From assembly GCF_026151205.1 (NCBI RefSeq), contig NC_087084.1, forward strand, positions 6,441,538-6,505,537: 64,000 nucleotides of DNA, in the 5' to 3' direction. Source of the stretch: Bolinopsis microptera (lineage: Eukaryota; Ctenophora; Tentaculata; Lobata; Bolinopsidae). A program made the position numbers and the translations under genes. This document shows positions 5,197 to 41,779 of this stretch, piece after piece (positions within the stretch are counted from its first letter, which is position 1; each line of letters begins with the position of its first letter). A model generated the notes under the pieces. The model made no database searches and was not told the DNA's origin. It saw only the letters and a program-made list of their open reading frames with translations.

Positions 5197-8100
5197 ATGT
5201 TGGGGACTATAACAGGAGAAAAGGATGAAGTAGATCCGATCACTATGATGCTGTATCACATTCACACACAACTGAACTTCAGGGAAGTCACCACGCTCTC
5301 AGCTATAGCAAACGTTCCACCACATCTCAGGTAATTGTTTCTACACTTAAATGTTAACAAAATATTGTCAAATGATTGCTATCTCCAGCTTATCTGTTGC
5401 TCCTACCAAAGGTCAAACAGCTACCAAAAAATGTTAGCTATTTGAACTTTGGAACAACAGATAAACAAGAGATAGCAATTATTTGACATTATTTTATCAT
5501 TACAATGATTAATGAACCTCTCTCATTTAAATGACCAACATATGAATACTGGCATGTGAAACGTTGTAATTGTAATCTGACTTAAATCCTCAGATATAAC
5601 ATTGAGGACGGATTAGATCTATTCTCGTATCTAACAGATGAGGACAAGATTCACAGTGATTACCTGGACATGCTATTCACCAGCATCAGACGACCTGATC
5701 TCGTTGATCACGTGCAAAGGTGAGCTTCATTTCCTCACATTATTTTAGATTGCATCCAAGTTAACTTTTAGTGAGGAAATCTATTAATATTATGTGCTAA
5801 TGTGGGGTTGGAGATTTTGCGGTGGGCGGTATGGCACTAAACGATCCGATTTGGAACCCAAATAAACTACAAGTCCAGATAATTTGAAAGATTTGATTTT
5901 AGAGGATTGTATTGCATATTGGTGGTCATTTCAATATCACGTATTGTATGATTGGGGATGAAATATTGGCTCATGATACTGATGCATTATGCATACTAGA
6001 AATTGTTATAAAAAAAGCTTTTATTACAAATGTCTAGAAAGAAAAGTATGAATATTTCTATAGACATGCATCTATTATTATTAGACATCAATAAATTGTT
6101 TCATAATTAAAATGCTTTTAGATACATCATCTCTTGTAGTTGTGACGGATATCGGAAAATATCTTTAAAAATGCTTCTTTACGTATGAATATACACGTTG
6201 ATATCAATTCCTATCAAATTTATAAAGCTACAAATTACTGCGACTGTATTTATCGGGTTCCAATTCTATACGAGTATATCTAATCATAATATTGATTCTT
6301 ACCCTTACCTCTACCTCTTAAAAGATTCTACAAAAGTGAGTGGAAGCAGTCAGCCTACGCGCATACTATGGAAACATTCCGTAAGACAGGAGAAATACTC
6401 CTGGTACCAAGGAACCAGTACAAAACTGTGGGTATCACTGAAGAGCATGATTACGATCTTTACCTTCACTACACTGATGCCGACAGGAAGTTTGCGGAGT
6501 ACCTTATCCAGGTGAGATTGTTGGACAGATCTTGATGTAAATATCACGAAATTCAAACATCCCTGGTAGCCTTGATTGCTAGACCTTTTTGTAGATTTGT
6601 GATGTTTTAAATCAACATGTTGTATGGTGGGCTGACAATCTAACTAAAACTTCTCGTCAATTAGTTGTAAGACAGATAATAGGGTTGCTCCAGTTTGAAA
6701 GATTTAAACCATAAATTCACTAAATACAGCTACTAAAAGAAGAGGGAGTAACGATTCTATCTGGGGACTTCAAGGAGATCTGGACGGAAGAACCGCTGAG
6801 ATGCAGATACTGTGTACCGATACTTAGCAAGTCGTACATCCAGCAGGATCTGACGGCAGAGCTCAACATTTTACTGGTTTGTGTGGTCTTCAAATTACTC
6901 AGTGGTATTACTATTGATTGGTAAATACTTGGACAGTAATTTAACTTATTATGGACGTCATCCATCCACACAGCTGTTTCGAAAACCACGAAAGTTGATA
7001 ATTGGGGGGGGGTGTAACCCAAAAAAACCCAATCCCAGTATGACCTTTTTCAGGGTAGGAGTTGGGTTTTTTTGGGTTTTTTACAAATTTTTCATTTGAA
7101 GGAAATAAAATCATGTAGGCACCTAGCAAAACAATTATCAGTACAACATCACTGTTGTTGTTTATCACTACAACATCACAATAGATATAATCGCTTAAAT
7201 ATCACCTAAAAGCAGTATTTTATTCACTGATGTGCTCAGAAGAAGTTGGCCATCCAGATATGATATCAGTCATATGTAATGCTCACTTCGATGGCCATGG
7301 CAAATTGAGTTAGTAGGGACGCAACTCACTGATGACCCCAACCCTGACCGCAACCGGTACGAGAGGAATAAAGCCTTTCTTCTCACCTTCACGATCTCTG
7401 TTTCCGTTTTCCTGATCATCCGCTTAACGAGAAACCATGCTCTATCTCCAACTGAAAGAATCTTGCAGTTACCATCAGCTGCGTGATCACATGTGATATT
7501 AAGTGATATCTTCGCTTGTTTATGGCCCTGGAGTCGCTAAAATCTTGACTGGGATGGCATTCGATCTCGCCCTCCATTGAGGCAAACCTCAACAGCCGTA
7601 TCATGATGCAGAGCATCACCATACACAGTTACTATTTTCGCCCATTCCTCTGATGAGTCAATATCCTCCACTTCCTCTTCTTCATCATCTGTTTCCGCTT
7701 CGTCACTCTCTGCTCCGTCAGAAGATGGTTGGAAAGACTCTCCTTCAAAGTTACAGTGTTCTTATCGCATCATCAAAATTTTTACAAGTAGGCAGGTGGT
7801 CTTTCAATGGTTGTGTGAAGCTTAGGTGGCCCAAGGCGTCACCGCTGGATAGAAGCTGGGTGGAAGCCCTGGTCTGATGTGAGGCTCCCAGAACTTTGAA
7901 AAGGGGTATCCTGCTGGTGCCCTCTTCCAGACACTCATCGGACAGCATGATGAAAGCCACTACCTCCACGTGGTGAAGACTGGATACTGGACAGGGGGTC
8001 CAGGCTAAAGGCAGGACGGTCGACGGGAGACATTGAGCCCCGGAAGTTCAATAATTTGATCTATTGACTCCTTAACTCTTGGTCTACAAGAGGCTTTGAG

Positions 8101-11100
8101 ACTCGTAAATCTTTACTGTGGATTGCACAGTAGCTAAAGAGGTGTTGGCTGTTACCCTGTTTAACCTAGTCTACTATGACCCAGCTAGACTGGACCACAC
8201 TCTGGTAGTCAGGATACGGCTCCCTATGCCCGGGGTACCGGGTAACGAGGTAGTCAGGGGAAGGGTTAGTCCCCGCTAAAGTGTAGCTCTGTTCTCACTC
8301 TAACCTCCTTATGCTTTGGGATAAAATCGGAAAGTCCCACACTGGAGCAGGTGACGATTGGGTAAGGATTACAACTGATGCTGTTTGGTAGAAAAAGGAA
8401 GTGTCACATTTGTCTTGTATAGCATATGTTCGTGCAATTACATGCTCAAGATACCCAAGATATTATGGTGAGAGTTAAAGATGGCTTTTGTTCAAGCGGA
8501 TTGCCTTAACCTTTTACTCTTTTAGTGGCGCAAGAGTTAAGAACACAATCCACTGCCAATGTGCAGGGGACTGCACAGGATTGTGAGCCAACTGAAAAGT
8601 CAAGATGAATCTTATCAACAGCTTAAGGGTTAAAGCCCCTTATTTTTCTAGTGGAAGTGGTTGCCGGGGTAATTACGCTGCTATTACAGAAGCTGATAAC
8701 TCGGTCTCCACAACACGACAACCTACTTCTACAGAAAGTCAAACAAGAAAACATCAAAAAAATATGAACATCAATTGTATTGTATCATGTAAAAGGACTG
8801 CTAAGGTTAGCACATTTAACATAAGAACAGCCAGAGAACAGCACAAACGCATCGAACTTGCAGAACTATTTTCTCGAATCAAACTGCACATCCTTGGCCT
8901 GCAAGAACATCATGTAGTGCATTCTGAGCCTACCAGGATAGAAAAGATGAACAAAGGGATTCATCTAGTGACCTCATCTGCGTGGAGAAACGCAGCTGGC
9001 GCTTCTAATGGGAGAGTAGGAATCATCTTGACGAGGACAGCATATGAGGCTATTTAAGTCTTATAAAATCTTACAGCGCAAGGATCCTTGCACCATGTCT
9101 TTCAATGGAAAGCGCAGGCTCACTGTCATCACATGCTACAGTCCTACAGAAGCCTCATCTGATGAGGAGGCAGAAAATCTCTTTTGTCTAAAACCAAGCA
9201 TCTTACTGTTAATTTAGTAGAAGAGGAGCCACACACAATAACTTCTAAGGACGGACATGCCTTAGAGGAAGTTGAGGATTTTTTCTACCCAGGAGCCTGG
9301 ATAAGTACAACAGAGCACGACTTTAGGGTACGCAAGGCCAAGGCATGGGCTGCCTACAACAAAATGAAGGCTATATGGAGGTCCAATTTGCGCCGAGATT
9401 TAAAGATCCGTCTGTTTCAAGGCTACAGTTGAATCAATCTTCCTGTATGGAACGGAAACGTGGACAATGACAGAATCTTTGAAAAGAATAGACGGATGTT
9501 ACAGTAAAATGCTTTGGATGGCCCTAAACGTGGACTGGAGAGAACATCGCACCAACAAATAGGTCTTTAAATCACTCCCAAGAGTTAGTTCGAAGATACA
9601 GGCCAGAAGAATGAGGTCGGCTGGGCAGAGATCCAGCGATATGATGACCTGGCAGTACACCAACTTCTCCTTCGGGAACCTAGCCATGGGACCAGAGGGA
9701 GGGGCAGACCACCGCTCACTTTCGTCGATAACCTAATAAGTGACACCGTACTCAAGAACACTGGGGAGATTAAGGAGCTTATGGCGGACAGAAAGCTTTG
9801 GAGACACATCATTGAGACTCGGACTCTGAAGCCGCCTTAAGTCAAGTAATTTAAGTCATGTGCTTTGACTTGCCCTTGACCTTCGTCATAGCCTCCTTCC
9901 ATGACATGGACAGGAGAACACATTTGCCACATTTGGCACATTTCCACTTTGTGCATTCATATGGATTATATCTCGATGATCGAGACATCCTGTTTGCTAT
10001 CGTGATAACATACTATCAATATAAACACACTCATATACTATGTAAACTATCTATTAAGTTAAGACATGAGAACAACACGTAGGTAAGACTCAGTGGGAAA
10101 TAATTCACATTCAATACAATTAATGAAATGGCTAGAATTTTGTTTAAATTTTGTTTAAAAAACCCAAAAAAAACCCAATCCCAGTATTACCTTTTCTTGG
10201 GTAGGAGTTGGGTTTTTTTGGGTTACACCCCCCCCCCCCCCCCCCCCCCCCCCATAATTGTACAATATTCCAATAATAATATCATTTTGAAAACAGAAGT
10301 AGATCTGGATGAATAACAAACTATTTATAGAATGACCGGGATCCCTCCAAAACTACAATTAATTCTCCACCGTCCCACACCAGGATCAAGAAATAAACCC
10401 CGGAGCCTCTCTGAAGAACATCATACCCATCCTAAACGGAGTTACTCCCAAATACCTATCAGACACCTGCCCTGGGCTGGAGAGTGTGGCTCAGTTCAGT
10501 TTCATCGGGGGAGTCGGCGAATACATCAAGCAGATCACTAGTATCATACATAACCGTGAGTGTGGATCTTAATGTTGCTCAAAATTTGGTTACAATTTTT
10601 TCAAGGATCAGGTTGTATCAAAATTGAATACGTAAATTGTAAAATGGTTCAGGTATTCTATGAAATGAATCGCGATGTAACTCAATGGGTTATCATACGT
10701 AAATGTAGTAGATTTTATCAGCTTATCTTTCTACTTTATTGATGCTCGATTATTGACCGCATATTCATGCGGACTTCAGACCCTAAGGGCTCATGTCCTT
10801 ATAAGGACTCATGACGTCAGTATTACTATTACAGGATTAAAGACGTCAGTAAGTAGATGGTATAAATGTGCAGCGACGCTACAGTGCACTTCCAAACATC
10901 AGTCAGGTATGTGTTCTTATGTATGTTAACACGATTTGTTTTTGGAGACAAGACATGTTCAACTGATAGACACAAATTGACTCAATAACTCACTTCCCCA
11001 GTTCAATTTTCTCTGATACAAAATTTCGCTTCAAACGGAATATAGTGCTGTGAGCTGTGACTACTGACCAGAATTCTCAAACAGCATGCTAACTTAGTAA

Positions 11101-13096
11101 TAACCACCATCTCAAGAACTAGCCACAATTATTAGATAGCTATTTCAAACGCTGCCGAGTGATGATTTACATTTTAGAGTATAGATACTGGACGTGCAAA
11201 AGATAGATCATAATCAAACAATTACTATGAATCGTTTGACGTTGGCGTGACATTCACGTAAAAACATAGATTTCCCTGGCATCATTCCCTTGAAGCTTGA
11301 AGGGTTGCCACACTCTAAAGTCTAAATGCAGGCAAAGCATCTTCATTCTTCATGCTAAAAATAAAGTTATTACTGCCATGATCCCGAATTTCGACTTTTT
11401 TTAACACTATCTACTGTGTGCAGGGAAGAGCCAGACGTTTGAGGTGAGCATGTCAGATCAGGACAGTTTTATAGTCTGTAGGAGTGAGAACAGTGTCCTC
11501 TTCAGAGGAGACAAAGGTTAGTTGGGGGGCCGGGGGGGGGGGGGGTAGTGGTATTATAGCAAATATTATTACTGATGTCTCTGATGCCAATTTTACTATA
11601 TCTTGGAGCTTTTTTTTTAAAAAGCCAATATGCTTGTTCTTAAAAAACATAAAATAATTATCTAATTAATTATTTAACTATCTAACTGATCGTCTCGGAC
11701 TCGACCAGGTATCAAGGGGCTGAGAGAGGGGTCAGAGAACGGGCACTGTGTAATATCAACAGATTACTCTGACGAATGTGGCCTGTGTGTCAGTGTGAAG
11801 AGTATGGGTCATCCTCTTACTTTCGTATCTGTTATTGCTCCCATCTATATGCCCAGAGGTTAGTTTTAATAGAATTTCAGGAAATTGTAAATATGTTAGC
11901 TGAAGTTATAGCCGAATTTCGCAAATGATGAAAGTAATGCAAATGTTAAAAATGTTAAACCCACTCCATCGCTAGGTACTTCAACTCTGTTGCTAGGAAA
12001 AGAGTGGATCAGTATTGCTTCCAGAAGGAATGCCTCTCAGTGCATGGCTAAAATAAGAATCAGGTATGGCACACTTCAGTTCTCTATCTTCAGTCTTCAC
12101 GTGAGTCGTGATATCAGATAGGTACAAGGTCCTGGGCCATGGCAACGTACAAAAACGCCATTAAACCTTAGAACTACCGAGTACCAATAAATGTTTACAG
12201 AATCAAGTTTAAACAAATGGATAAAAAGTTACTCAAAAAGTACATCCTTGCAAGACTAGAATCCTTGGAGTTGGCCCTTGCAAGATTATTTAGAGACACC
12301 CTGTATCCCACTCTTGTTACAAACTCTATCTATACATCTATGTATCCCCCCACAGCTACGCTCCTGAAGAAGACGAAGGGCTGGTGATGAAGGTACTTAG
12401 TCCGAGTGTAAAGGAAGAAGTGCTCTTCAACTCTAGCGTCACTATCGGCTCCGGGGAGGGGTCCAACTTTAAGATACAGGTAAACTCTTTGCCAATTTGG
12501 GTAATCAAATGAATTCTGAACCGTTGGTATATACCGAACGAAAAGGGCCATGAAACTGCCGTGTCTTCGCAAAAGCTAATTGAGGACTGCGATGAGTGCG
12601 ATTGCATCTTTTAACAAATAATCTACAACTAAACACACATTTTAACTATTTCAGGTGCCGGGTATAGAGATCTTGAAACAGCACCTAAAATTAACTAAAA
12701 CCGCTGAAGGCTGGCTCCTGAAACCAATGTCACCGTCATGCCACGTGTATCTCCAGCTCCCCAAAGAGGAGGATTCAGAGCCAGTTTGTGTGCCTTCAGG
12801 TGGAGAGATTCTAGTGGGTAAGTGCTATTTCTCGGCAGAACGATCATTGGAGTACTGCAGGTGTTAATTGTAACTAGCCGTACTATCAACTTTATAACAT
12901 CACAAAGAACATGTTACATGTAACGTCCTATCAAGCATTTTTCCATCTGTTATACTTATAGTGTTGTATTTATAGTTCAAACTTTACAGGAACCCTGAGT
13001 ACGATAAGAGCTGTGATAAACGAGGAGGAGATACCGGAGGACGAGGGAATAGGACTATCAGACACGTGCTCTCGAATATCTGCCAAAAACACGTGA
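5197..13096 (+). CDS. DED-TIR-FHA-like multidomain adaptor, 11 exons, 496 aa
   Basis: Exons 5197-5330, 5594-5719, 6325-6511, 6730-6876, 10384-10555, 11424-11516, 11709-11858, 11976-12063, 12356-12479, 12655-12817 and 12990-13096 all have GT/AG ends and compatible phases. Residues about 13-88 look like a death-effector domain of FADD type: GLDLFSYL in the middle and an RRPDL (RxDL) motif in the last helix. Residues about 129-255 look like a TIR domain: box 1 YDLYLHYTDADRKF, a CRYCVPILSKSY strand, and Glu193 near the catalytic-Glu position of NADase TIRs. Residues about 370-475 resemble an FHA phosphothreonine-binding domain (VTIGSGEGSNFKI, then QHLKL, then GGEILVG). Residues 256-366 are beta-rich and unassigned. 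A role as an innate-immune or cell-death adaptor is inference. An untranslated exon may precede the ATG. Confidence 0.82.
7005..7095. repeat. Hairpin-like repeat with G tract (left copy)
   Basis: A G run followed by TGTAACCCAAAAAAACCC and, about 40 bp on, GTTGGGTTTTTTTGGGTT, so the segment is itself a near-palindrome. A second copy in opposite orientation, with its own C run, lies at 10148-10253. Both sit in intron 4 of the DED-TIR gene. It looks like a foldback or MITE element. Confidence 0.6.
7096..8604. other. Intronic sequence upstream of LINE remnant
   Basis: No domain-bearing frame found. The part from about 7960 on has the higher GC and AGGGG-rich look of a LINE 5' region and runs straight into the endonuclease remnant, so it may be the element's untranslated leader. 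This is inference only. Confidence 0.35.
8605..9840 (+). mobile_element. Dead non-LTR retrotransposon (LINE), internally deleted
   Basis: 8605-9057 encodes the start of an apurinic-type endonuclease (STFNIRTAREQHKRIELAEL and ILGLQEHH), continued after a frameshift to about 9180 (RLTVITCYSPTEA). The text then jumps to the end of a reverse transcriptase: residues typical of the thumb/C-terminal region (FLYGTETWTMTESL, then GRGRPPLTFVDNLISDT, then DRKLWRHIIETRTL) to the stop at about 9840. The catalytic RT core is missing at the joint near 9183. Frameshifts show it is dead. It lies in intron 4 of the DED-TIR gene and helps make that intron 3.5 kb long. Confidence 0.8.
10148..10253. repeat. Hairpin-like repeat with C tract (right copy)
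   Basis: Inverted partner of 7005-7095: AACCC/GGGTT hairpin arms followed by a C run of about 25 bases. The two copies bracket the LINE remnant. Either they are two independent insertions of one foldback family or they are ends of a composite unit. Confidence 0.6.
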
Positions 13097-16052: not shown

Positions 16053-18093
16053 TTACATCAGCTTTTGGCTTTGATCATTAAATTTGATTTGAGTTAAAAA
16101 CTTCGTCCAGTTCCTGCAGCTATAAGATTGACTTATGAAAACCAATAAAAGAACATTCAGAAGATCGATATGTATTTTTACTGTCATTTGGTTTAAGGCT
16201 TGCACTGTTGGAACATTTACTTTTAGAGCATTTATATGGTTTTTCACCAGTATGAGTCCGCCGATGGCAAAACTAAATTTGATCTGTCGCTTGCAGTGTA
16301 GGAACATTCAGAGCATTTATATGGGTTTTCACGGCTGACGGACAACTAGGAACCTTTCAATTTTACCTAGTTAACTAATTAACATGCAAGCTTGGGAAAT
16401 CCAATCAGCTCCGACAACTAGGAACCAATCATGACATATCCCCGACAACTAGGAACCTCTGGAGATACTTTAAACATTCAGGTGTCCACCGATTTCACAG
16501 CTGTGCTGTATATATTTCTGCACTCATTAATTAAGACAAAGATTTTTTCAAGATAATGATAGTTCAAACCCAACATAATAATTACATACAGAATACATTA
16601 CTCAAAATCAATCAAAAGTATTTGGCAATCTCAAACAGATAGTCAACCTTGCTAGAGCAATCCGAGTATTTGGAACAGATCTGAAACAACTGGTCATTGG
16701 AAGTTTTCCTTCTAATCCTTTTCTTAGAAGGGGTTTTTCCAACACCCAGTCGATCGATATGGTAATCAGTGATCACCTGCTGCTCCCTAATAGCACGGAA
16801 GTACTCTTGCACGGTCGGCTTGGGTCGATTCACCCTGGATTTAAATCCACGATGAAAACCCTCGACCATGTTCGGGGAAACTCCGGATCCTCCAACGTCT
16901 AACACTTCTTAATATACTTCATAATACACAGCTACTTACTAAACTGTCATGTGAACCCTACCCAGGTTCTTGGTTGTCCGGCTGTTAGGATGGTTATAAT
17001 ATGGATCACATCACAAATGATACGTCACTGATTGGGCCATGTGATGTGATACCTGTGGGAGGCCGAAATGAGAGGTTCCTCGTTGTCGGTCACCGGTTTT
17101 CACCAGTATGAGTCCGTCGATGTGAAACTAAAACTGATTTTTGGCTTGAACTGTAGGAACATTCAGAGCATTTGTAAGGCTTTTGATTTTCACTGGTATG
17201 AGTTGCTGATGACGAGCTAAATTTTGTTTTTGGCTTGAACTGTAGGAACATTCGGAGCATTTATACGGTTTTTCGCCAGTATGAGTCCGCCGATGTAAAA
17301 CTAATGCTATCTTTTGGCTTGAACTGTAGGAACATTCGGAGCATTTATACGGTTTTTCGCCAGTATGAGTCCGCCGATGTAAAACTAATGCTATCTTTTG
17401 GTTTGCACTGTAGGAACATTCAGAGCATTTGTAAGGTTTTTCACCAGTGTGAATCAGCTGATGACGAACTAAATTGGGTTTTACGCTTGCACTGTAGGAA
17501 CATTCAGAGCATTTGTAAGGTTTTTCACCAGTGTGAATCAGCTGATGGCGAACTAAATTCGGTTGTACGCTTGTACTGTATGAACATTCAGAGCATTTAT
17601 ATGGCTTTTCACCAGTATGAGTCCGTCGATGTAAAACTAAAGCTCTCTTTTGGCTTGCACTGTAGGAACATTCAGAGCATTTGTAAGGCTTTTCACCAGT
17701 GTGAATCAGCTTATGACGAACTAAATTGTGTTTTCGGCTTGCACTGTACGAACATTCAGAGCATTTGTAAGACTTCTCATCAGTATGAATCAGCTGTAAT
17801 TGACAAGGTAATGCTGATTCTTGGATGGGACAATGCATCTGAGAAGTAGGATTCGAATACCTTTCTGTTTTAATAACAAGATTATCTTCCTCTTTCTTGA
17901 TCTCTGACTTTATCAATTCTGGTAAGTTGCAATCTTCCAGGCCCTCTTTCTTGATCTCTGTCTTTATCAATTCTGGTAAGTTGCAATCTTCCAGGCCCTC
18001 TTTCTTGATCTCTGTCTTTATCAACTCTGGTAGGACACAATCTTCTTCCATTTTCATATCATCTTTAAACTCTGGTGCATTTCGCTGTTCCAT
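16053..18093 (-). pseudogene. C2H2 zinc-finger gene A, copy 1 (broken)
   Basis: Reading leftward from the ATG at 18091-18093, the frame stays open to 17128 (321 aa). An N-terminal acidic part has three repeats of ELIK(T/S)EIKKEGLEDCN-type sequence carrying ψKxE sites, followed by C2H2 fingers of the form YKCSECSYS...H-x3-H with TGEKP linkers. Six fingers are complete. The seventh is lost because one T is missing near 17203 relative to copy 2, which shifts the frame. Further left a MULE insertion (16333-17094) separates the remaining finger remnants (16053-16307). The product would have been a nuclear sequence-specific DNA-binding protein. An extra base in an A-run near 16270, shared with copy 2, shows that decay began before the duplication. 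Confidence 0.82.
16333..17094 (-). mobile_element. Non-autonomous MULE-like DNA transposon, 762 bp
   Basis: Absent from copy 2 of the block. It is flanked by a perfect 9-bp direct repeat GGTTTTCAC (16324-16332 and 17095-17103), as expected of Mutator-like elements. The ends are inverted repeats: GGCTGACGGACAACTAGGAA on the left, and GGTGACCGACAACGAGGAAC read from the right end on the other strand. Inside on the minus strand, 16612-16905 encodes a fragment typical of the MULE transposase C-terminus (NMVEGFHRGFKSRV). Two internal copies of the GACAACTAGGAACC motif follow the left end (16411, 16443). The transposase is far too short to work. Confidence 0.85.
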
Positions 18094-19131
18094 TTTTCGG
18101 AAAGTAAATTACCCTACGTGTAGAGATGTTAGCATTTGATGATCATCGCTAAACAATAATCTCTACTATAATTCAAAGAATTATTTCTGCTGTCTGTCTG
18201 TCTGTACGACCGCCCACGTGCAAATTAGATGAGAAATAGGAATTTAGGTAACAACCAAAAGGTTCCATAGCAACGGTGTTTTAATGCACACATGCACGTG
18301 CAAAGATTGTTTTAATGTCATTTTGATCGGTTTTGTGGTAATTACGTTGTGTTTAAAGTGTTTTATATTTAAATTGACTGTATCTTCGGTCGGGATGGAT
18401 CTTTTTTGATGCGATTAAAACCTTCTTTCAAAGAATACTACTAGCTTCGTCCCTGTTACCACGGGCTTTCTAGTATGAATATAAATTCGAGATATCCTCT
18501 CTTCGAATCGACATTTCAGATTAAAATTAATTGGAAAGATTTAACTGATATGGGCCTTGGAGGACTTCGACGCACCAGACGAACTATCATTGGCTATGTG
18601 AAAACAGTTGCTAACACGGATTGACGGATTGGGTAACAACAAACAATGGCCAAAAACTTGCTGACGTAATAGTAATACTGATATGTGGATGCTCCCTAAA
18701 ACTAGAACTCTCCAAACTAAAGCTCCACGGTAACGGTTTTGACTTTTGAGCTTTACTTCGCACCTGTTGCATGGTGTCAGGTGTGATATCAGTGACCAAA
18801 CATACCTATGTGCATTGTGTCGCCTTCCCACGTTTTTCCCCCATTCCCCAACTTAAAATACCTAAAATTCGGGAAAATGCAAAAGTATATGAACTCGCTC
18901 AGTCGAAATTTGCATCAGCCTGCAACAAAATTATCAAGCAATCACGATAGTCTGTAAGCAAAATTATAAAACATCACCGGTGAGGGTAAACAAAAAGCCA
19001 AACTAATTTAACGTGATTTCCAAGTACAACAGCCGTGACTTGACTAGTGAAGATTGAATTTAACTTCCTATAACTCCGGGAGGGGGGATCAAGTACCAAG
19101 TTCTCTACTCGACGTCGACTAAGAGTAAATG
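18094..19131. other. Spacer between zinc-finger genes A and B
   Basis: Includes the presumed promoter side of gene A. A (CTGT)n-like stretch lies near 18190. A 96-codon minus frame at 18541-18831 is present in both copies but shows no domain, so I do not call it a gene. Confidence 0.45.
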
Positions 19132-20448
19132 TCATTTTGGAATTTTGTCAAAAGATCCACCCACCCCCTTGGCGGCTTTTGTGGTATTAACTGTTGAGAA
19201 ATTTGTTGTTCCACTTATTGCTGGGGGAGACAAGTGAGATGTTGGTTGGTAACTGGAGAAGGAACCGGGAAGTAAGCTGGAACTGGAGAGTAGGGAGTCA
19301 GCTGACTCAGCTAAAGATGTTAGAGGCTTCACGAAAGGTATAGGTTTAACAAAAAGGGGTCCTTCAACACTATCGTTTTGTTTTTCATGAAAAGTGTGTG
19401 AGTTTTCTCCGGTATAGTTCCGCTTTGGAAAAGCCAAAGTTGACTTATGACAACCATCATAAGAACATTCAGAAGATCGATATGTATTTTTACTGTCATT
19501 TGGTTTTAGGTTTGCACTGTTGGAACATTTAGAGCATTTATATGGCTTTTCGCCAGTATGAGTCCGCCGATGGCAAACTAAATTTGATCTGTTGCTTGCA
19601 CTGTAGGAACATTCAGAGCATTTATATGGTTTTTCACCAGTATGAGTCCGTCGATGTGAAACTAAAACTGATTTTTGGCTTGAACTGTAGGAACATTCAG
19701 AGCAACTATATGGTTTTTCACCAGTATGAGTCCGTCGATGTGAAACTAAAGCTGATTTTTGGCTTGAGCTGTAGGAACATTCAGAGCATTTGTAAGGTTT
19801 TTCACCAGTGTGAATCAGCTGATGGCGAACTAAATTTGGTTTTACGCTTGCGCTGTAGGAACATTCAGAGCATTTATATGGCTTTTCACCAGTATGAGTC
19901 CGTCGATGTGAAACTAAAGCTGATTTTTGGCTTGAACTGTAGGAACATTCAGAGCAGCTGTACATTTTTTCGCCAGTATGAGTCCGACGATGTAAAACTA
20001 AAGCTCTCTTTCGGCTTGCACTGTAGGAACATTCAGAGCATTTATAAGTTTTTTCACCAGTATGAATCTGTTGATGTAGAACTAAAGCTGTTGTTTTGCT
20101 TGCACTGTACGAACATTCAGTCTTGTAAGTCTTTTCATCAGTATGAACCAACTGTTGACAAGGTAATGCTGATTCTTGGATGGGACAATGCATCTGAGAA
20201 GTAGGATTCGAATACCTTTCTGATTTAATAACAAGATTATCTTCCTCTTTCTTGATATCTGTCTTCATCAATTCTGGTACGATGTAATCTTCCAGGCCCT
20301 CTTTCTTGATATCTGTCTTTATCAATTCTGGTACGATGTAATCTTCCAGGCCCTCTTTCTTGATATCTGTCTTTATCAATTCTGGTAGGATGCAATCTTC
20401 TTCCATCTTCATATCATCTTTAAACTCTGGTACATTTTGCTGCTTCAT
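19132..20448 (-). CDS. C2H2 zinc-finger protein B, copy 1, 438 aa
   Basis: A single intact minus-strand frame that starts MKQQNVPEFKDDMKMEED. Residues about 20-70 hold three acidic repeats of the form PELIKTDIKKEGLEDYI with ψKxE (SUMO-consensus-like) IKKE sites. Then comes a run of C2H2 fingers (YKCSECSYS-x-HxxxH, TGEKP linkers): the first lacks its first Cys, six or seven are complete, and the last two are degenerate. The C-terminus is Ser/Thr/Pro-rich. It is likely a nuclear DNA-binding regulator whose target cannot be predicted. Copy 2 at 38860 differs by almost nothing (one visible K/T change near 20047). No intron is seen. Confidence 0.88.
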   Translation of the reverse strand: MKQQNVPEFKDDMKMEEDCILPELIKTDIKKEGLEDYIVPELIKTDIKKEGLEDYIVPELMKTDIKKEEDNLVIKSERYSNPTSQMHCPIQESALPCQQLVHTDEKTYKTECSYSASKTTALVLHQQIHTGEKTYKCSECSYSASRKRALVLHRRTHTGEKMYSCSECSYSSSQKSALVSHRRTHTGEKPYKCSECSYSASVKPNLVRHQLIHTGEKPYKCSECSYSSSQKSALVSHRRTHTGEKPYSCSECSYSSSQKSVLVSHRRTHTGEKPYKCSECSYSASNRSNLVCHRRTHTGEKPYKCSKCSNSANLKPNDSKNTYRSSECSYDGCHKSTLAFPKRNYTGENSHTFHEKQNDSVEGPLFVKPIPFVKPLTSLAESADSLLSSSSLLPGSFSSYQPTSHLSPPAISGTTNFSTVNTTKAAKGVGGSFDKIPK

Positions 20449-21665
20449 TTTACTGGAAAGTCAACAACCGTACGCGTACGTGTAAATATGTTGGTATTTG
20501 ATGATGGTCACTAGAAAATGATATGAATGTAAATTCGAGGTGTATTATCTCCGATACGATATTTCAGATAAGAATTAATTGGAAAAATGTTAGCTCTGTT
20601 CATGGAGCATCATACTTAAAGCTAGCTAATTAGAGAATAGAAAGACCCAATGAAAAAAACAAGCCTTGATCACAGAAAATAGGGAAATGGCGGAGAGGGT
20701 AGTCAAATTCGTTCAAAGTTTAAAATGTTATTTTGATATTTTGCCGATAATTAGTTGCAAATAAAAGATAATACATATATACATACATTTATTACTATTA
20801 TAATAAACTTCTAAACCTAATCTTGGAAACAATTAAACTACAGTCTTTAAACTAAAGCTCCACGATAATGTTATGTAGCTGAATATATCTGAATATATAT
20901 TTGAATATTGCATAACCATACAGTCCGTGATCTAGTTCGTGATGTTCGTGATGTAAATTTTACGGTGATCACTCTTTACAGAATTCTGTAGTATTCTGTA
21001 GTATTACAAGATCATGAATCTGGTCAAGATTTAGGAAAGGTCACGTTTAACATCACGAGCTAGATCACGGACAGTATAGTACAGACAGATCGTAGTACTG
21101 AAAAAATCGATCGACCGACACAAGAAGCTTTCGAAGGATTTTTGACGTTTTTGAGTCCCATTGGGTGCCCTTTATGGCTGACCAACTTTTCCAAACTTTT
21201 CCACGTGTCTTACGCCCACTTTTTGCCACTTTTACCACTTTTTACCACCTTTCTTGTTTGTCGAATATCCTTAGTTTTGATCATCGCAAAAGCTTGCAGA
21301 TTAATCGAGGGTGTTCATCTTATCAGGAGGAAAAACTGTTGTAAAGACACTTTTTACGTCAGACAATTAGTTAATTGGATAATTATCAATTAGCTAATTA
21401 GAAAAAATGTAAAATTTTGTAATTGGCTCAAAATGATCGAAATAGCTTAAAACACGGAGAAAAGTAGTTTTTACTTGTAGAAAAACTTTGAGTCCGGAAC
21501 CCCCTCAAACGTTCGGTCACAGGTTGTTGCTCTGCGAAGCAGAGCAACGATCTGGAAGGGTTGACAACGTCAATCAGCACCCGAAAGCAACCCGAAGAGA
21601 TTTTTACAGCATGTGATAATTGATGCAATTAATCGAAACTATTAGTTTTGCTATAAGAATTCATA
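20449..21665. other. Upstream region of zinc-finger gene B, copy 1
   Basis: No gene supported. There are ATATA stretches near 20780-20910 and an imperfect inverted repeat built from GTGATCTAGTTCGTGATG and ATCACGAGCTAGATCACG (20926-21070). Near 21482-21545 is a short relative of the dispersed GGGGTCCCGGAC-type repeat seen again at 25208. Confidence 0.5.
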
Positions 21666-21875
21666 TTTTAAGATTTTTACTGTTAACGACTGCTTTTCTT
21701 ACTTACTGTATAAAAAATGGATTTAAAAATCATTTTCTGAAATAAAAAAAAAGTCTTAAAAAATGGAAAAAAATCGGATTTTTGATGGTTTTGAGTGCCT
21801 TCTAGCGTTCATATTAATGTCCGTTCATAATTATGTCCGTTCATTTAATGTCCGTCCAAATAAGGTCCGATAAGG
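21666..21875 (+). mobile_element. 3' fragment of pogo-like transposon at block boundary
   Basis: Matches the right end of the element at 32142-32995, down to the terminal TAATGTCCGTCCAAATAAGG and GGTCCGATAAGG. TA follows (21876-21877), then the first base of the transferase unit (TATCATCAACTT). It marks the exact edge between zinc-finger block and transferase unit. The same fragment is at the same edge in copy 2 (ends 41606). Confidence 0.8.
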
Positions 21876-21912
21876 TATATCATCAACTTCCTACACTTAA
21901 CTTGGGTCTTAT

Positions 21913-24485
21913 GGAAGAGATGTCCCAGAATGGCGAAAGCAGTATTCAAATTGCTGGATTCTCTATGGGAAAGCCAGAGAGTCCCGCTGCAATGGCGAGT
22001 AGGTGAAGCCATTCTGATAGCAAAAACTGAGGATTTAGATGACCCTAGTAAGTTCAGAAACATCACTAAAACAAACACTAGTGGGAAGTTGCAGATGGGA
22101 TTACTAGCGGACAGAATGCTAGAGTATATGGTCAGCAATAGCTACATAGACACGTCTATCCAGAAAGGATTCCTGCGTAAGACACCAGGTTGCCTCGAGC
22201 ATACTCAGGCTCTGATGGAAGAGTTAAAGGATGCCAAATCTAATAGACGACAGATCTTTGCAGTTTGGGTGGACCTAATGAACGCCTACGGCCGGGTTCC
22301 CCACAACTTGATAATATATGCTCTAAGACATTATAAGTTCCCAAACTGGCTCATAGAATATATGTTTAAGTACTATGATGAGCTGATTGTGAGAGTGGTG
22401 ACAAAGGACTGGAAAACAAACTGGTTCTTTTATATGTTAGGTCTTTTTCAGGGCGACCCTCTATTGGTTGTACTGTTCTTAATAGTTTTCAACCTACTAT
22501 TGGATCTCCTGAAAAATCAAAGCGACTTGGTTTACAAGCCGTCTTTTAGTTCTAGCAGCACGTCAAGTCGTGCTTTTGCTGACGACCTAACTCTGATGTC
22601 TCCCAGGCTGGAAAAGATGAAGAAGCTAATAGATGTGATGGAAAGATTTCTTACTTGGTCAAGGAAAATGAAAGCCAAGCCGAGTAAATGCGTATCCCTG
22701 GGGATGAAGGTTATAGATGGAAGGTATGTGTCCTATGACCCTGAAATTTTCATAGATGGAGCTCAAATCCAGTTTATTGGAAATACACCGATGAAGTTTC
22801 TTGGCCATTGGATATATGTGGATCTGGGCCTCAAAGATACCAAGAAGCTGATAGAAGACAAACTGATTACACTGTTTCAGGCAGTGGACGGATCAGGCCT
22901 TAATGGAGTGATGAAATGCTGGATTTACAACAACCTCCTAACCAGCAAGCTCTCCTGGGACCTGATGATCTACAATCTCCCGGTTAGTTTTGTCAAAGAT
23001 CTTGAAGCAATATGTACGAAGTATCTGAAGAAATGGCTAGGTGTAACAAAGACAATTACTGTCAGTGTGCTTTACAGAAATAAGGATTGCTTTGGATTGA
23101 ATCTTAAAAGACTATCGGACTTATACAAGTTCCTTCAGGTGTCCAAAGGTTACTCTCTAAAGAACAGCAAGGATCCTAAAGTTAAGGAGGTCTACGAGCA
23201 CAGGGCCAAGAAACAAGAAGGGAGCAGTCGGTGGGGTTACACTAAGGAGCTGAGTGCTAGAGAAAGAGATCTCTACTTCAGAGAGTTAGTAGGGGTAACA
23301 GTGCAAGGCAGGATGGGCTTGGGATCCAAGCGGAGTGTAGCCAGTGAAAAGGAAAAACTGAAAGAACTGGTATCCCACATCTCAGAGCAGGATATCCTGT
23401 TGACACTGGTAGACAAGGGAGTTCAAGGACAATTCTTAACATGGGAAAACATCATGCAGCTAGACCTAGGTTGGAACAACCTTATTTACAACTACAAGAT
23501 GAGCCCTGCTCTTCTTAAGTTCCACCTCAATGCAACCCATGACGTTGCAAATACTCCAGCAAACATGAGCCTGTGGAACTATGCTGACACAGGACACTGT
23601 CCACTTTGCGGATGGAGACACTGCAACATTAAGCACATTTTGGTAGCTTGCAACTTCTCGCTGAACAACAAACGATAGAATTGGAGGCATGACAACGTGC
23701 TGCGGGTCATTGCGAAATCCCTACTGGATCAAATCGAGAAGTTCAACAACACAGATTTTAAACTTGAAGTTCAGGACTGGACAGGCTTTAAGTCATCTAG
23801 CAGCTGTTACCAAAAACCGAAGACGAAGATGAAAAGAGAGAGCCCTTTTGAGAAAGACCAAGATTGGCAGATTATCTGGGACGAAGATGACCTCCCAGCA
23901 CAGTTCCCCCAGCACATCTACGGAACTGCAGAACGTCCCGATATTGTAGTCTGGTCTGATAAAGGAAAGGTGGTCATATTAGTAGAGTTGACAGTTGGTG
24001 ACGAGAGTAACTTTAGTGACCAAGTAGAACGTAAACAAGCACGTTACAACAGAGAGCTTATTCCTGGGCTGCATGGCAGTGGGTGGAAAGCTCAGCTTTT
24101 TACGGTAGAGGTTGGGTGTAGAGGCTTCTGGCATCATACCTTACCAGCCCTACTAAACTACTTTGGTGTTACAAAGAGAGTAAAGAAAGCAGTGTTCCAA
24201 GAGGCGGCTTTGGTTGCTCTCAGATGTTCCTATGCAATCTGGTTAGCAAGAGAAAACAAGAAGTGGAGTCCCTGCTACAACATCGCAAAAAGACCCACTG
24301 TTCTACCATCAACTGAGTGAGCTGAGTGTTGGGCCCTTAAAACATTGTTTAAAGCCACACCTGGAATCTCAAGTACCAGGATCAGTGATGGAAGCTAAGC
24401 AGATACATAGATGGAGTTGCTATCGAAAGATATAGAACTCAGGTATCCAACATCGTACCTTGATTATATTGTAGTATTTTCTCAC
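21913..24485 (+). mobile_element. 5'-truncated LINE with RT and C-terminal PD-(D/E)XK-type nuclease
   Basis: Units B and C lack this sequence: both read CTTATAATTAAATGGACAAA where unit A is split. The coding frame runs 21930-23678 and, after a single in-frame TAG at 23676, on to 24320 without frameshift. It contains the RT palm (FADDLTLM at about 22570), a C-x2-C-H-x4-H-C knuckle (CPLCGWRHCNIKHILVAC), then a restriction-like endonuclease signature RPDIVVWSDKGKVVILVELT with a later K-x-x-RY. This order (RT, CCHC, nuclease) fits the early-branching LINE clades that use a restriction-like endonuclease. The N-terminal part is missing. Several host bases (AATTAAA) appear lost at the target. Confidence 0.85.
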
Positions 24486-25207: not shown

Positions 25208-25620
25208 AGGGGGGGGGGGGGGGGGGGGGGTGGATTTTTTTTGCGAAACTTGGTTTCGAGATAGCAGTTGACCAACAAACTAGAACCGCGCCGGTGACCG
25301 AACTTTTGAGGGGGTCCCGGACCCCAACCGCCAAACGGTGCCCGCGGGGCAGCCACGCCCATATTTGGTCCAAATTAGGCCTAATTTAGCCAAATACCCT
25401 GAACATGCGTAAAACCCAGATTTAAGGTGCTCTACTTGTAGCTAGTAGTCCCCTGAACTCGTATATGAAATGTCATCAAGATTGGACAAAAAATAACGGA
25501 GTTATCAGCTAAAAACTATATGCCCATATTTGGGCATACGCACCTAATTTGATCGATTTTGGCCCATAAATTAGTCAAATATCGTTATTTTTGATATTGG
25601 TATTTTTAACCCATTATAAT
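25208..25620 (+). repeat. Dispersed G-tract repeat, unit A copy
   Basis: A run of about 24 G, then a conserved segment of about 390 bp (GGTTTCGAGATAGCAGTTGA, GGGGGTCCCGGACCCC, GGTGCCCGCGGGGCAGCC, CATATTTGGGCATACGCACC). Other copies lie at 28987 and 42370, plus two diverged ones in opposite orientation at 47258-47440 and 47700-48020. The family is not identified. Confidence 0.75.
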
Positions 25621-26067
25621 GATCATTGAAGCGCTTCAATAACCACAGCAAGGATCAAAGAAAGCAGTTTAATGGTAAATGCAGAAATTGACTGATGGAC
25701 GATGGAATTCTGTGCCCACTACTAACGGACCGACATCATAGTACATCACTAAATTGATATATCACTTAAACTTTAATTTAGCGATCACATCTCATCTGCT
25801 GTTTGATCTTTAACCATCAGAGAATATCCAGAAAATTGTTGACCGTGATTAATGGTAGAGTTATTCTCATGATATCAGTAGGGACTCACTGTCGATGACA
25901 TGCTTGTTCTCCAATTCCATGTGGTATTATTTATTAATTATTATGTGTACATTATTTATTATACCGTCCCCACCGGAGGTGGTGCACTTATTTGAACAAT
26001 AAAATTACATAGCATTAACCATTACGAAATTGTGTTTTCAGTGATTGTGATATTTGACGTTGCTAAT

Positions 26068-27915
26068 ATGGAACGTGGATGCCATAATCTTAGTTCAAAA
26101 CTTGGATACATACTTATCGTAACCTATTTGTCTTTTCTCGTATTTTTATTTTGCCAAAGTCTTATCCAACGTGACAAAGGAGCACACGTGTCCTTATCAA
26201 CTGATGTGGACTCTGTGCAAGCAGTGTCGGAACTACAATCCCATCAGTTGCGTTCATTGGGAGGAAGTGAAGGATCTAACAGTAGCGCAGGTGTCATAGA
26301 GAATGCCTTGAAGGAAGTTTCAAACAATTCGGCAGCGGCTGTTATTAGGAAGCAACATGAGTTTAAAGCGATTACTATAACTACCACTACCACTTCCCAA
26401 ACCGATAATATAGCTAATACTACTGCCACTACTTCTAAAACTGTCTCACCGAGCGACAAAGTAAAGCAATCAGCAAGCTTTTCTCACAAATTGAAATATC
26501 GTCTCCAATTTCCCGACAAAGGCTTGTGTGTTGGCATTTCCAAATTAAAGAGACTTACACTGTCTTTTTGTAAACCGGTTAAACAACAAGCTTTCTACCA
26601 CATCAACAGATTTCTGAGATCTGTAGAATTTTCACTTTGTGTCGGTTTGGCGGGATTCAACAACTCTACCTCTGGTGACAGTCTGACACTGCTAGATTGT
26701 ACACAAGCAATCAGTTTGAACTTAGAAAAAGCCTTTTTCTAAGTTTTTTTTAGAGATAATGTGTACACACAGACGACCGCGTAATATGCGGGATCTATAT
26801 ATCAAAAAGGTAGACTCATCTACAGGGATGATCAAGCAGATGGTCGTGGAGTACTCTGCATTGCTCCCGAAGGAGGTGGAGGCATATGGTTGGGAAAGAA
26901 AATAGTTCTGACTAAAAAATGTAAAAAATATGCATCGCAGATTGATCTCCTTGAGGAAAGTGCATTTCTACGTGACAGAGCAGCGCTTTTAATGCCGTCT
27001 GGAGATAAGTCTTGTGATTCGCCATCCAATAACCGACCACCAATGGCTAAGCTCTTACCTGAGATACAAGTTGAAAGATGCAAAATATTATCTGAATGTG
27101 TAACTGTGGTGGTGAAGACAGCACGGAGACCTCTCCTGGTTCTCAGACTTGCAGAATCAATAAAAACAGTACTCAATCAGGATCTTCCGATGATAGTGAT
27201 CGATGATGGCCCCAACCCGCATCCCTCGGATATCGTGGCCAAAATTTCCCGATTCCCAAATATAAATTACGTTATAAATGAAAGTAGGGATCTTGGAATT
27301 AGTGAAGGCAGAATGATAGGAGTTAACATGGTAACGACAAAATACTTTGTAAACATGGACGACGACAATGTGGTCACAGAATCGTGGGACGCCGCTAAAA
27401 TCGTAGAACTACTCGATACAACTGACTTATCTTTAGTGGGTGGGAGAACCGACTCGATGGACTGGCCTGGGTTTATGGAATTTGGTTGTGACCAATCAAA
27501 ACCAACTCTTAACCATTATTCGAGATCCTGCAGGATTGCTAACCAGAGCTTGCCTTTCTTTCCAGATTGTTTGCGATGCGATCTGACCAGTAACAGTTTC
27601 ATGGCAAAGACAAAAGATATTCTTGAAGTTGGTGGTTGGAGCAAGGAGCTAAAAGTACACGAACATCAGGATATTTTCTTGAGATTGAAAGCTGCTAGCA
27701 AGAAAGTTGTCTGGTGTCCTAAATTCCATGTTTTAAATTTGCACATTAACAATGATGATACAACTGTTATCGACAATGCTTACGAAAAGCTGAGATACGG
27801 TAGAGAGTGGCAGATGAAGAAGGTATTTGAGAATCATTGGAATGTTAAATACTACAAATTATTTACGGGAAGCATGGAGGAATGGCCTAACACATGGGAA
27901 AACGACAAATATTAA
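26068..27915 (+). pseudogene. B4GALNT-like glycosyltransferase, copy A (interrupted)
   Basis: Same gene as the intact copy at 29820-31592. The first ATG in frame is 26068, just after a likely acceptor (TTTTCAG). Compared with copy B a 78-bp net insertion lies at about 26732-26809, flanked by AAAAAG on both sides. It puts a stop codon (at 26740) after LNLEKAFF. The catalytic half then stays open from 26890 to 27915. Unless the insertion is spliced out, the product loses its catalytic domain. Substitutions elsewhere are few, so the break is recent. Confidence 0.85.
26732..26803. mobile_element. Small insertion in transferase copy A
   Basis: Bounded by AAAAAG direct repeats. The core AGATAATGTGTACACACAGA and CGACCGCGTAATATGCGGGA recurs in the opposite orientation at 43925-43975, where transferase copy C is cut off. 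It is probably a short mobile or foldback element. Confidence 0.6.
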
Positions 27916-28986
27916 CGAGAGGTCAAAATTGAAAATACTTGCAAGTTTAGAGCTTACTTACAGTTATTTTGAATGGATACTATTAAGATCATGTAACATA
28001 AAGTGACTCTGCAGGGTTTTGATCTTTAGAACCGTTATCCCCATGTTATAAGTAATATCCTTAAAAGGTTGGAAACATCTGGTATTCATGAATACAAAAT
28101 TTAAATTGATAAAATGAGTTTTGGGTTCAAGCACAATATTGACGTTCCGTTTTCTATCACGATATCTTAATTTAGTTTGCTGTGTTTTACCTTGAAAATA
28201 TCAAATCAACCAAGAAAATCTTTACAATTAAAACGGCTGCGTAAAAACTTTAAAGTGCCACCGAAACTAAATGCCGAGTTTTAACTGCCTTAAAGTTAAC
28301 CTCTGTTGGAATTCTGAGCGTCAGTTTTAGTCATGACAAAATTCTTGTCGGCATTTCCATATAACCTCAGCTGTAATCTAAAGCTGTTGCCCTACTATTG
28401 CAACAGATAATATTCAACCATGTTTCAAGCAAAATTATACTCCTTTGGCTTTACAGAGAAGTATATCATCAACTTCCTACACTTAACTTGGGTCTTATAA
28501 TTAAATGGACAAAAATATGCAAAGGCTAGACCCCCTTCAAACGCTTCAGCTTTTAAACAAATCTTACCAATTTGGCTATATTTGGATTTGGTAGTAATTT
28601 AACAAAAAAATAGCTATAATAGCTATAGCCTTAGGGGTTAGGTGGCCTAGTGGTAAGTGGTTAGAGCATCTGCTTTCTGCGCAGAAGGTCCAGTGTTCAA
28701 ACCCCAGTTAAATGAGGAAGGGTATACCTGATAAAAGTGCAAGAAACTTCCTAGGATACCCCTTCAGTGCATACTGTACATAGTACTATTAACTATTATT
28801 GTATAACTTTGTTTAGTTACAGAATACAGACGCGATCGCAGTTGTATATCTTTTACGGTTTTTGCGGAAAGTCGCGTTAAAGTTGATGCCGTGGCGTCAG
28901 TAAAATGGCACGGAAAACTATCGTCTCGCTTTATATAATATATATAGTAAGATGTATTTTTAAAACCATTGTTACTTTGGTACATA

Positions 28987-29345
28987 GGGGGGGGGGGGGT
29001 GGATTATTTTGCGAAACTTGGTTTCGAGATAGCAGTTGACCAACAAACTAGAACCGCGCCGGTGACCGAACTTTTGAGGGGGTCCCGGACCCCAACCGCC
29101 AAACGGTGCCCGCGGGGCAGCCACGCCCATATTTGGTCCAAATTAGGCCTAATTTAGCCAAATACCCTGAACATGCGTAAAACCCAGATTTAAGGTGCTC
29201 TACTTGTAGCTCGTATATGAAATGTTATCAAGATTGGACAAAAAATAACGGAGTTATCATCTAAAAACTATATGCCCATATTTGGGCATACGCACCTAAT
29301 TTGATCGATTTTGGCCCATAAATTAGTCAAATATCGTTATTTTTG
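28987..29345 (+). repeat. Dispersed G-tract repeat, unit B copy
   Basis: Same family as 25208. A roughly 220-bp stretch present in unit A between TTGGTACATAG and the G tract is missing here, so the G tract follows TACATA directly. Confidence 0.7.
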
Positions 29346-29819
29346 ATATTGGTATTTTTAACCCATTATAATGATCATTGAAGCGCTTCAATAACCACAG
29401 CAAGGATCAAAGAAAGCAGTTTAATGGTAAATGCAGAAATTGACTGATGGACGATGGAATTCTGTGCCCACTACTAACGGACCGACATCATAGTACATCA
29501 CTAAATTGATATATCACTTAAACTTTAATTTAGCGATCACATCTCATCTGCTGTTTGATCTTTAACCATCAGAGAATATCCTGAAAATTGTTGACCGTGA
29601 TTAATGGTAGAGTTATTCTCATGATATCAGTAGGGACTCACTGTCGATGACATGCTTGTTCTCCAATTCCATGTGGTATTATTTATTAATTATTGTGTGT
29701 ATATTATTTATTATACCGTCCCCACCGGAGGTGGTGCACTTATTTGAACAATAAAATTACATAGCATTAACCATTACGAAATTGTGTTTTCAGTGATTGT
29801 GATATTTGACGTTGCTAAT

Positions 29820-31592
29820 ATGGAACGTGGATGCCATAATCTTAGTTCAAAACTTGGATACATACTTATCGTAACCTATTTGTCTTTTCTCGTATTTTTA
29901 TTTTGCCAAAGTCTTATCCAACGTGACAAAGGAGCACACGTGTCCTTATCAACTGATGTGGACTCTGTTCAAGCAGTGTCGGAACTACAATCCAATCAGT
30001 TGCGTTCATTGGGAGGAAGTGAAGGATCTAACAGTAGCGCAGGTGTCATAGAGAATGCCTTGAAGGAAGTTTCAAACAATTCGGCAGCGGCTGTTATTAG
30101 GAAGCAACATGAGTTTAAAGCGATTACTATAACTACTACTACCACTTCCCAAACCGATACTACTATAGCTAATACTACTGCCACTACTTCTAAAACTGTC
30201 TCACCGAGCGACAAAGTAAAGCAATCAGCAAGCTTTTCTCACAAATTGAAATATCGTCTCCAATTTCCCGACAAAGGCTTGTGTGTTGGCATTTCCAAAT
30301 TAAAGAGACTTACACTGTCTTTTTGTAATCCGGTTAAACAACAAGCTTTCTACCACATCAACGGATTTCTGAGATCTGTAGAATTTTCACTTTGTGTCGG
30401 TTTGGCGGGATTCAACAACTCTACCTCTGGTGACAGTCTGACACTCCTAGATTGTACACAAGCAATCAGTTTGAACTTAGAAAAAGGTAGACTCATCTAC
30501 AGGGATGATCAAGCAGATGGTCGTGGAGTACTCTGCATTGCTCCCGAAGGAGGTGGAGGCATATGGTTGGGAAAGAAAATAGTTCTGACTAAAAAATGTA
30601 AAAAAGATGCATCGCAGATTGATCTCCTTGAGGAAAGTGCATTTCTACGTGACAGAGCAGCGCTTTTAATGCCGTCTGGAGATAAGTCTTGTGATTCGCC
30701 ATCCAATAACCGACCACCAATGGCTAAGCTCTTACCTGAGATACAAGTTGAAAGATGCAAAATATTATCTGAATGTGTAACTGTGGTGGTGAAGACAGCA
30801 CGGAGACCTCTCCTGGTTCTCAGACTTGCAGAATCAATAAAAACAGTACTCAATCAGGATCTTCCGATGATAGTGATCGATGATGGCCCCAACCCGCATC
30901 CCTCGGATATCGTGGCCAAAATTTCCCGATTCCCAAATATAAATTACGTTATAAATGAAAGTAGGGATCTTGGAATTAGTGAAGGCAGAATGATAGGAGT
31001 TAACATGGTAACGACAAAATACTTTGTAAACATGGACGACGACAATGTGGTCACAGAATCGTGGGACGCCGCTAAAATCGTAGAACTACTCGATACAACT
31101 GACTTATCTTTAGTGGGTGGGAGAACCGACTCGATGGACTGGCCTGGGTTTATGGAATTTGGTTGTGACCAATCAAAACCAACTCTTAACCATTATTCGA
31201 GATCCTGCAGGATTGCTAACCAGAGCTTGCCTTTCTTTCCAGATTGTTTGCGATGCGATCTGACCAGTAACAGTTTCATGGCAAAGACAAAAGATATTCT
31301 TGAAGTTGGTGGTTGGAGCAAGGAGCTAAAAGTACACGAACATCAGGATATTTTCTTGAGATTGAAAGCTGCTAGCAAGAAAGTTGTCTGGTGTCCTAAA
31401 TTCCATGTTTTAAATTTGTACATTAACAATGATGATACAACTGTTATCGACGATGCTTACGAAAAGCTGAGATACGGTAGAGAGTGGCAGATGAAGAAGG
31501 TATTTGAGAATCATTGGAATGTTAAATACTACAAATTATTTACGGGAAGCATGGAGAAATGGCCTAACACAAGGGAAAACGACAAATATTAA
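29820..31592 (+). CDS. Beta-1,4-N-acetylgalactosaminyltransferase-like protein, copy B (intact)
   Basis: 590 aa from the first in-frame ATG, which follows a likely splice acceptor at 29790, so a non-coding exon may precede it. It is a type II Golgi protein: a short cytoplasmic N-terminus, one membrane segment LGYILIVTYLSFLVFLFC (about residues 12-29), a Ser/Thr-rich stem, then a GT-A fold region from about residue 320. That region looks like GT12 (B4GALNT1/2): VTVVVKTARRPLLVLRLAES, IVIDDG, a metal-binding MDDDN at about residues 405-409, DLSLVGGRTD, and HEHQDIFLRL for the catalytic acidic/H region. Such enzymes add GalNAc beta-1,4 to glycolipid or glycoprotein acceptors. The acceptor is unknown. 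It is the only whole copy of three in the window. Confidence 0.82.
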   Translation: MERGCHNLSSKLGYILIVTYLSFLVFLFCQSLIQRDKGAHVSLSTDVDSVQAVSELQSNQLRSLGGSEGSNSSAGVIENALKEVSNNSAAAVIRKQHEFKAITITTTTTSQTDTTIANTTATTSKTVSPSDKVKQSASFSHKLKYRLQFPDKGLCVGISKLKRLTLSFCNPVKQQAFYHINGFLRSVEFSLCVGLAGFNNSTSGDSLTLLDCTQAISLNLEKGRLIYRDDQADGRGVLCIAPEGGGGIWLGKKIVLTKKCKKDASQIDLLEESAFLRDRAALLMPSGDKSCDSPSNNRPPMAKLLPEIQVERCKILSECVTVVVKTARRPLLVLRLAESIKTVLNQDLPMIVIDDGPNPHPSDIVAKISRFPNINYVINESRDLGISEGRMIGVNMVTTKYFVNMDDDNVVTESWDAAKIVELLDTTDLSLVGGRTDSMDWPGFMEFGCDQSKPTLNHYSRSCRIANQSLPFFPDCLRCDLTSNSFMAKTKDILEVGGWSKELKVHEHQDIFLRLKAASKKVVWCPKFHVLNLYINNDDTTVIDDAYEKLRYGREWQMKKVFENHWNVKYYKLFTGSMEKWPNTRENDKY

Positions 31593-41606: not shown

Positions 41607-41779
41607 TATATCATCAACTTCCTACACTTAACTTGGGTCTTATAATTAAATGGACAAAAATATGCAAAGGCTAGACCCCCTTCAAACGCTTCAGCTTTTA
41701 AACAAATCTTACCAATTTGGCTATATTTGGATTTGGTAGTAATTTAACAAAAAAATAGCTATAATAGCTATAGCCTTAG

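Follow-up and report, generated by a model that had tools for sequence, protein, structure and literature searches.

What might a protein do that joins a death-effector domain (DED) to a TIR domain in a ctenophore? The question is raised by a gene of Bolinopsis microptera on the + strand at positions 5197–13096 of the 64,000-nt stretch of genomic DNA analyzed here (the window), and the presence of a DED and a TIR domain within the one protein that it encodes is well supported by profile and structure-database comparisons. The predicted product is reminiscent of MyD88: we propose, with a probability of roughly 55%, that it is a soluble MyD88-like adaptor that begins with a FADD-type DED, continues through a short linker into a TIR domain of the TIR_2 type, and ends in a C-terminal part with weak resemblance to the FHA domain and without its phosphate pocket. 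An adaptor mechanism, inferred from the domain architecture, is most likely, and the C-terminal part most likely resides in the same protein as the DED and the TIR domain.

The DED and the TIR domain

The N-terminal region is supported as a FADD-like DED. The Pfam DED profile, PF01335, matches residues 18–89 (E 2.7e-7, 31.2 bits; 35.1 bits for the N-terminal piece), and FADD entries are the best PDB matches of this piece (E 1.1e-5), with the motif GLDLFS identical. The RxDL motif is composed of R78-P79-D80-L81, and the E/D-RxDL charge triad of DEDs, described in PMC4558505, is complete: in the PDB alignments, Glu30 pairs with FADD residue 19, Arg78 with residue 72, and Asp80 with residue 74. 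The Death domain profile PF00531 finds no match in the protein at E ≤ 10. Both the FADD-like DED and the TIR domain had been called from the sequence in a first-pass annotation, and profile searches bear out both calls, each at a score slightly under the Pfam cut-off; the motifs on which that annotation relied are all present in the protein.

The TIR domain is likewise supported and is of the TIR_2 type: PF13676 matches residues 134–217 with an E value of 1.2e-4 for the whole protein and 1.9e-5 (25.6 bits) for the piece alone. A PHROG of unknown function also matches (E 1.5e-6). The TIR_2 type, together with a best score to PDC-S66 (E 3.4e-8, 31.3 bits; the family carries no description) in the PADLOC library, which covers both established and candidate proteins of anti-phage defence, is in keeping with a different and rather unlikely reading, in which the protein is an effector and not an adaptor. 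The DED would then oligomerize the TIR domain, which would cleave NAD+ or make a nucleotide signal. In SARM1, it is SAM domains that oligomerize the TIR domain. An acidic residue, Glu193, occupies the position of the TIR catalytic glutamate, and the first-pass annotation had listed it among the motifs behind its TIR call. However, Glu193 aligns opposite an Asp of MyD88, and because MyD88 is an adaptor, an acidic residue at this position is not diagnostic of NAD cleavage. Furthermore, the TIR piece has 11 PDB matches, none of them a SARM1 chain; the top one is MyD88, though at an E value of only 0.2. A MyD88-like adaptor is retained here as the preferred reading.

Searches of the protein pieces against NCBIfam returned no matches. 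Two further Pfam hits, NAD_synthase to the DED piece (E 0.15) and STAR_dimer to the TIR piece (E 0.13), were set aside as chance-level.

Exon structure and the extent of the gene

As read from the genomic sequence, the gene model holds. The first-pass annotation of eleven exons with matching phases was correct: all ten introns are GT-AG, the intron phases are, in order, 2, 2, 0, 0, 1, 1, 1, 2, 0, and 1, and the spliced frame spans exactly 496 amino acids, followed by a TGA stop. The exons and the one large insertion between them are as follows.

5197–5330, + strand: exon 1, residues 1–45; ATG and beginning of the DED (DED profile begins at residue 18)
5594–5719, + strand: exon 2, residues 45–87; remainder of the DED, carrying GLDLFSYL and RPDL
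6325–6511, + strand: exon 3, residues 87–149; linker and initial part of the TIR domain
6730–6876, + strand: exon 4, residues 150–198; TIR core, with RCRYCVPILSKSY and Glu193
7004–10253, no strand assigned: transposable element in intron 4, ~3.25 kb, with inverted repeats and target duplication
10384–10555, + strand: exon 5, residues 199–256; second half of the TIR domain
11424–11516, + strand: exon 6, start of the C-terminal region; in-frame Met265 at 11450
11709–11858, + strand: exon 7, C-terminal region without a Pfam match
11976–12063, + strand: exon 8, C-terminal region without a Pfam match
12356–12479, + strand: exon 9, residues 366–407; start of the FHA-like region, with VTIGSGEG
12655–12817, + strand: exon 10, residues 408–462; FHA-like region, with EILKQH and GGEILVG
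12990–13096, + strand: exon 11, C terminus of the protein and TGA stop codon

When codon usage is scored with a table trained on nine long open reading frames of the window, the model frame is the best of six in 10 of the 11 exons; in exon 11 it scores −2.5, with the stop codon costing 5, versus 4.0 and 2.3 in two other frames. A search of the genome (264,652,675 bases in 232 contigs) with the 496-residue protein gives 12 matches at E ≤ 10, comprising the 11 exons in order within the window and one further place on contig C1 (C1:6675379-6675726, E 0.0105). The latter contains four stops and by eye lacks the conserved motifs, and was rejected as a paralogue and attributed to chance. In this exon-by-exon protein search, no convincing second copy of the gene is found elsewhere in the genome.

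The first-pass annotation had considered that two separate genes might be divided at the 3.5-kb intron, intron 4. A split at this position is contradicted by the location of the intron. The alignment of the TIR piece with MyD88 crosses the exon 4/5 junction, and intron 4 therefore interrupts a single domain, the TIR domain. Its length is due to the transposon: with the element and one target duplicate removed, intron 4 measures 251 bp. The element is bounded by terminal inverted repeats of 29 bp (7004–7032 and 10208–10236, the right copy being followed by a longer C run) and flanked by a 6-bp target duplication, ATAATT (6998–7003 and 10254–10259). Its interior (7300–9900) has at least 74 matches in the genome, with 40 of 270 candidates scored, and at least 11 other copies, 97–99% identical, extend over positions 1–2594 or further within the 2601 positions searched; we infer a young insertion. 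LINE-like reading frames are visible by eye inside the element, and two pieces of it match nothing in Pfam at E ≤ 0.01.

The position that bears on whether one gene or two is present is instead intron 5. The alternative, which we consider rather unlikely, is that a DED-TIR adaptor ends with exon 5 or with an unseen terminal exon and that a separate FHA-like protein begins at Met265 in exon 6. With the transposon removed from intron 4, intron 5 is the longest intron (868 bp), and it adjoins the end of the TIR domain; read-through past exon 5 gives HNRECGS and then a stop. Its donor is the weakest of the ten: under a leave-one-out matrix built from nine sites, its score is equalled or exceeded by 20% of all + strand GT dinucleotides in the window. 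That donor nevertheless reads GTGAGT from +1 to +6, and the phases of the flanking exons agree. Intron 5 also holds a TATAAA (10861) and an AATAAA (11360), and the Met265 codon has an A at −3. Such hexamers occur on the + strand at 0.56/kb (TATAAA) and 0.83/kb (AATAAA), however, so that finding each once in 868 bp is close to expectation, and the genome search gives no place elsewhere at which exons 6–11 stand on their own. We consider it quite likely that exons 1–11 form one gene.

In addition to this gene, the window contains several other features. Upstream, on the same strand, a fragment of a protein-tyrosine phosphatase gene lies at 1643–2675. C2H2 zinc-finger genes are contained in a 4-kb stretch that is present twice, at 17889–21912 and 37617–41643, with the copies 19.7 kb apart and 99.8% identical; more duplicated blocks surround it, reflecting either recent tandem duplication or an assembly artefact. 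Nearly identical blocks lie at 25218–28463, 28987–32141, and 43021–43544. The copy at 29748–31589 contains a glycosyl transferase family 2 domain, and the copy near 43194–44116 appears disrupted by eye. A reverse transcriptase frame at 21864–23675, LINE-like by eye, has a weak zinc-binding match at its C-terminal end. Tandem repeats of 57 bp (15.9 copies) at 49772–50680 have long open frames on both strands, and two or three similar stretches are found at 58451–60431, of which 58451–58993 has a weak match to a galactose-binding family (E 0.0047, under the cut-off).

The C-terminal part, the proposed mechanism, and candidate partners

Pfam gives nothing for residues 257–374 at E ≤ 10. For residues 366–496, FHA (PF00498) is the only Pfam match at this threshold (E 0.054, 14.4 bits, under the cut-off of 20.7; E 0.13 for the whole protein), covering profile positions 1–65 of 67, and no PDB entry matches at E ≤ 10. 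Controls, run for this piece only, comprised one reversed and nine shuffled versions; three of the ten gave chance Pfam hits to other families at similar E values (0.062, 0.077, and 0.13). The FHA assignment is marginal and faintly supported. The DED-TIR-FHA fusion put forward in the first-pass annotation is supported in its first two members, and its third is weak. A tandem arrangement of two FHA-like repeats (residues 257–366 and 367–496) was also considered and was discarded, because shuffled sequences score 26.5 on average and the two segments at best 23 in local alignment, a value equalled or exceeded by 812 of 1000 shuffles.

It had further been suggested that the FHA domain reads phosphothreonine, such that a kinase signal would drive TIR action and cell death. 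The near-complete span of the profile match favors such a reader, as does the retention of Gly and His among the five conserved FHA residues in an alignment with three FHA sequences and an FHA consensus. The remaining three residues are replaced in that alignment, Arg by Glu400 or Ser398 (depending on the aligner setting), Ser by Leu414, and Asn by Cys436. According to PMC4037201, Arg, Ser, and Asn bind the phosphopeptide, and Gly and His stabilize the structure. Since the three contacts are absent, phosphothreonine reading is unlikely, and the kinase-driven scheme is very improbable; a C-terminal part with an FHA fold would probably be blind to phosphate.

For the proposed MyD88-like adaptor, the following mechanism can be envisioned. 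The TIR domain would dock on, or co-assemble with, another TIR protein of the same animal, TIR contacts would cluster the DEDs, and the resulting DED array would nucleate a homotypic death-fold assembly, relaying the signal. The C-terminal part may serve as a phosphorylation-independent binding module or as an autoinhibitory one. As to potential TIR partners, the TIR_2 profile has 22 matches in the genome at E ≤ 0.001, and some of these places share one frame or gene. The TIR domain of the gene itself is not among them, presumably because it is split over three exons. The TIR profile PF01582 has five matches at E ≤ 1, four of them over the cut-off and the best with E 1.3e-4; all five overlap TIR_2 places. 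This contrasts with PMC11797021, in which ctenophores are without PF01582 matches. Two of the TIR_2 places, 67 kb apart on contig C5 (L005 6941956 and L006 6875273), have identical scores and are perhaps a recent duplication.

Several observations weigh against this adaptor assignment, among them the weak donor of intron 5 described above. The DED and TIR scores are slightly under the curated Pfam cut-offs (35.9 and 28 bits, respectively). F25 of FADD, which according to PMC4558505 is part of a DED interaction patch, is matched by Ala36 in two of five printed alignments and by a gap in the other three, with no aromatic residue near; a FADD-type hydrophobic patch is therefore not evident. No homotypic DED partner is found in the exon-by-exon genome search, which can miss split domains. 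The evidence, moreover, is the genomic sequence of one species.

The single place that the DED profile finds in the genome is exon 2 of the DED-TIR gene itself (window 5598–5720, E 0.0166, from one first-look candidate). This count is a lower bound, because the search proceeds exon by exon and DEDs split between exons can be missed. The link from the DED to caspases, drawn in the first-pass annotation, gains no support from the searches made: in addition to the lack of another DED place in that search, Pfam finds neither a DED nor a CARD or Death domain in the N-terminal portions of two genes that resemble caspases (on contigs C12 and C2). Peptidase C14 matches seven places in the genome at E ≤ 1, six of them over the cut-off, and no DED-caspase partner was found in the two of these seven whose N-terminal pieces were searched. 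The best Pfam match of the C12 piece is DUF1307 (E 0.0012, under its cut-off), and these N-terminal pieces may hold a divergent death fold. The stretch L017:5888-6358 comprises N-terminal exons of a caspase-like gene, with a prodomain without a Pfam death-fold match.

A more far-reaching proposal is that the gene fuses the only DED found by the exon-wise genome search, a bacterial-type TIR domain, and a phosphate-blind sensor with an FHA fold into a self-contained death switch that would predate or replace separate TLR-MyD88 and FADD-caspase pathways. We regard this proposal as doubtful.

Comparison with known systems

MyD88 adopts a modular order comprising an N-terminal death-fold domain, a linker, and a TIR domain. 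The B. microptera protein shares this order of death fold and TIR domain, and its TIR piece has MyD88 as the top PDB match. The main differences are that MyD88 has a death domain where a DED is predicted here and that the protein described here has an additional C-terminal part. FADD provides the closest DED in the PDB; the protein differs from FADD in having a TIR domain and no death domain match. TIFA is not known to have a DED or a TIR domain. It resembles the putative adaptor here in being an FHA-type immune adaptor (PMC7083832), whereas the FHA-like part described here is without phosphate contacts.

Death folds joined to TIR domains, or DEDs joined to other immune domains, have been described in other invertebrates. 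A placozoan is reported to have CARD-TIR “MyD88-like” proteins (PMC6321704), which similarly place a death fold and a TIR domain in one protein of a non-bilaterian, with a CARD in place of the DED. A sponge contains a TIR-DEATH protein (PMC12909245), and DEDs are fused with TRADD-N and NACHT in invertebrates (PMC8195603, PMC2575513); these fusions likewise combine a DED with other immune domains, and no DED-TIR combination appears in the portions of text seen. From the ctenophore Mnemiopsis, PMC11797021 describes a TIR_2 protein that also carries a death domain and that “might be considered as Myd88-like”. It resembles the protein described here in its host phylum and in pairing a death fold with TIR_2, and differs, in a comparison by description only, in that its domain is called a death domain and not a DED; if that domain was named loosely, the Mnemiopsis protein is possibly an orthologue.

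No DED-TIR protein was found in the open-licence literature searched (text only, figures excluded), and no relative was confirmed among 25 pattern stretches in bacterial and archaeal contigs and 4 in viral contigs. A death fold with a TIR domain is a known kind of protein, and what was not found in print within that literature is a ctenophore protein with a DED at this position and a further C-terminal part. According to PMC11797021, ctenophores are without canonical Toll-like receptors and perhaps without MyD88, and MyD88 does not cluster with their TIR_2 proteins. A DED-TIR adaptor would unite cell-death and TIR modules in one molecule of such an animal, and would provide a concrete gene with which to ask how TIR signals pass without MyD88.

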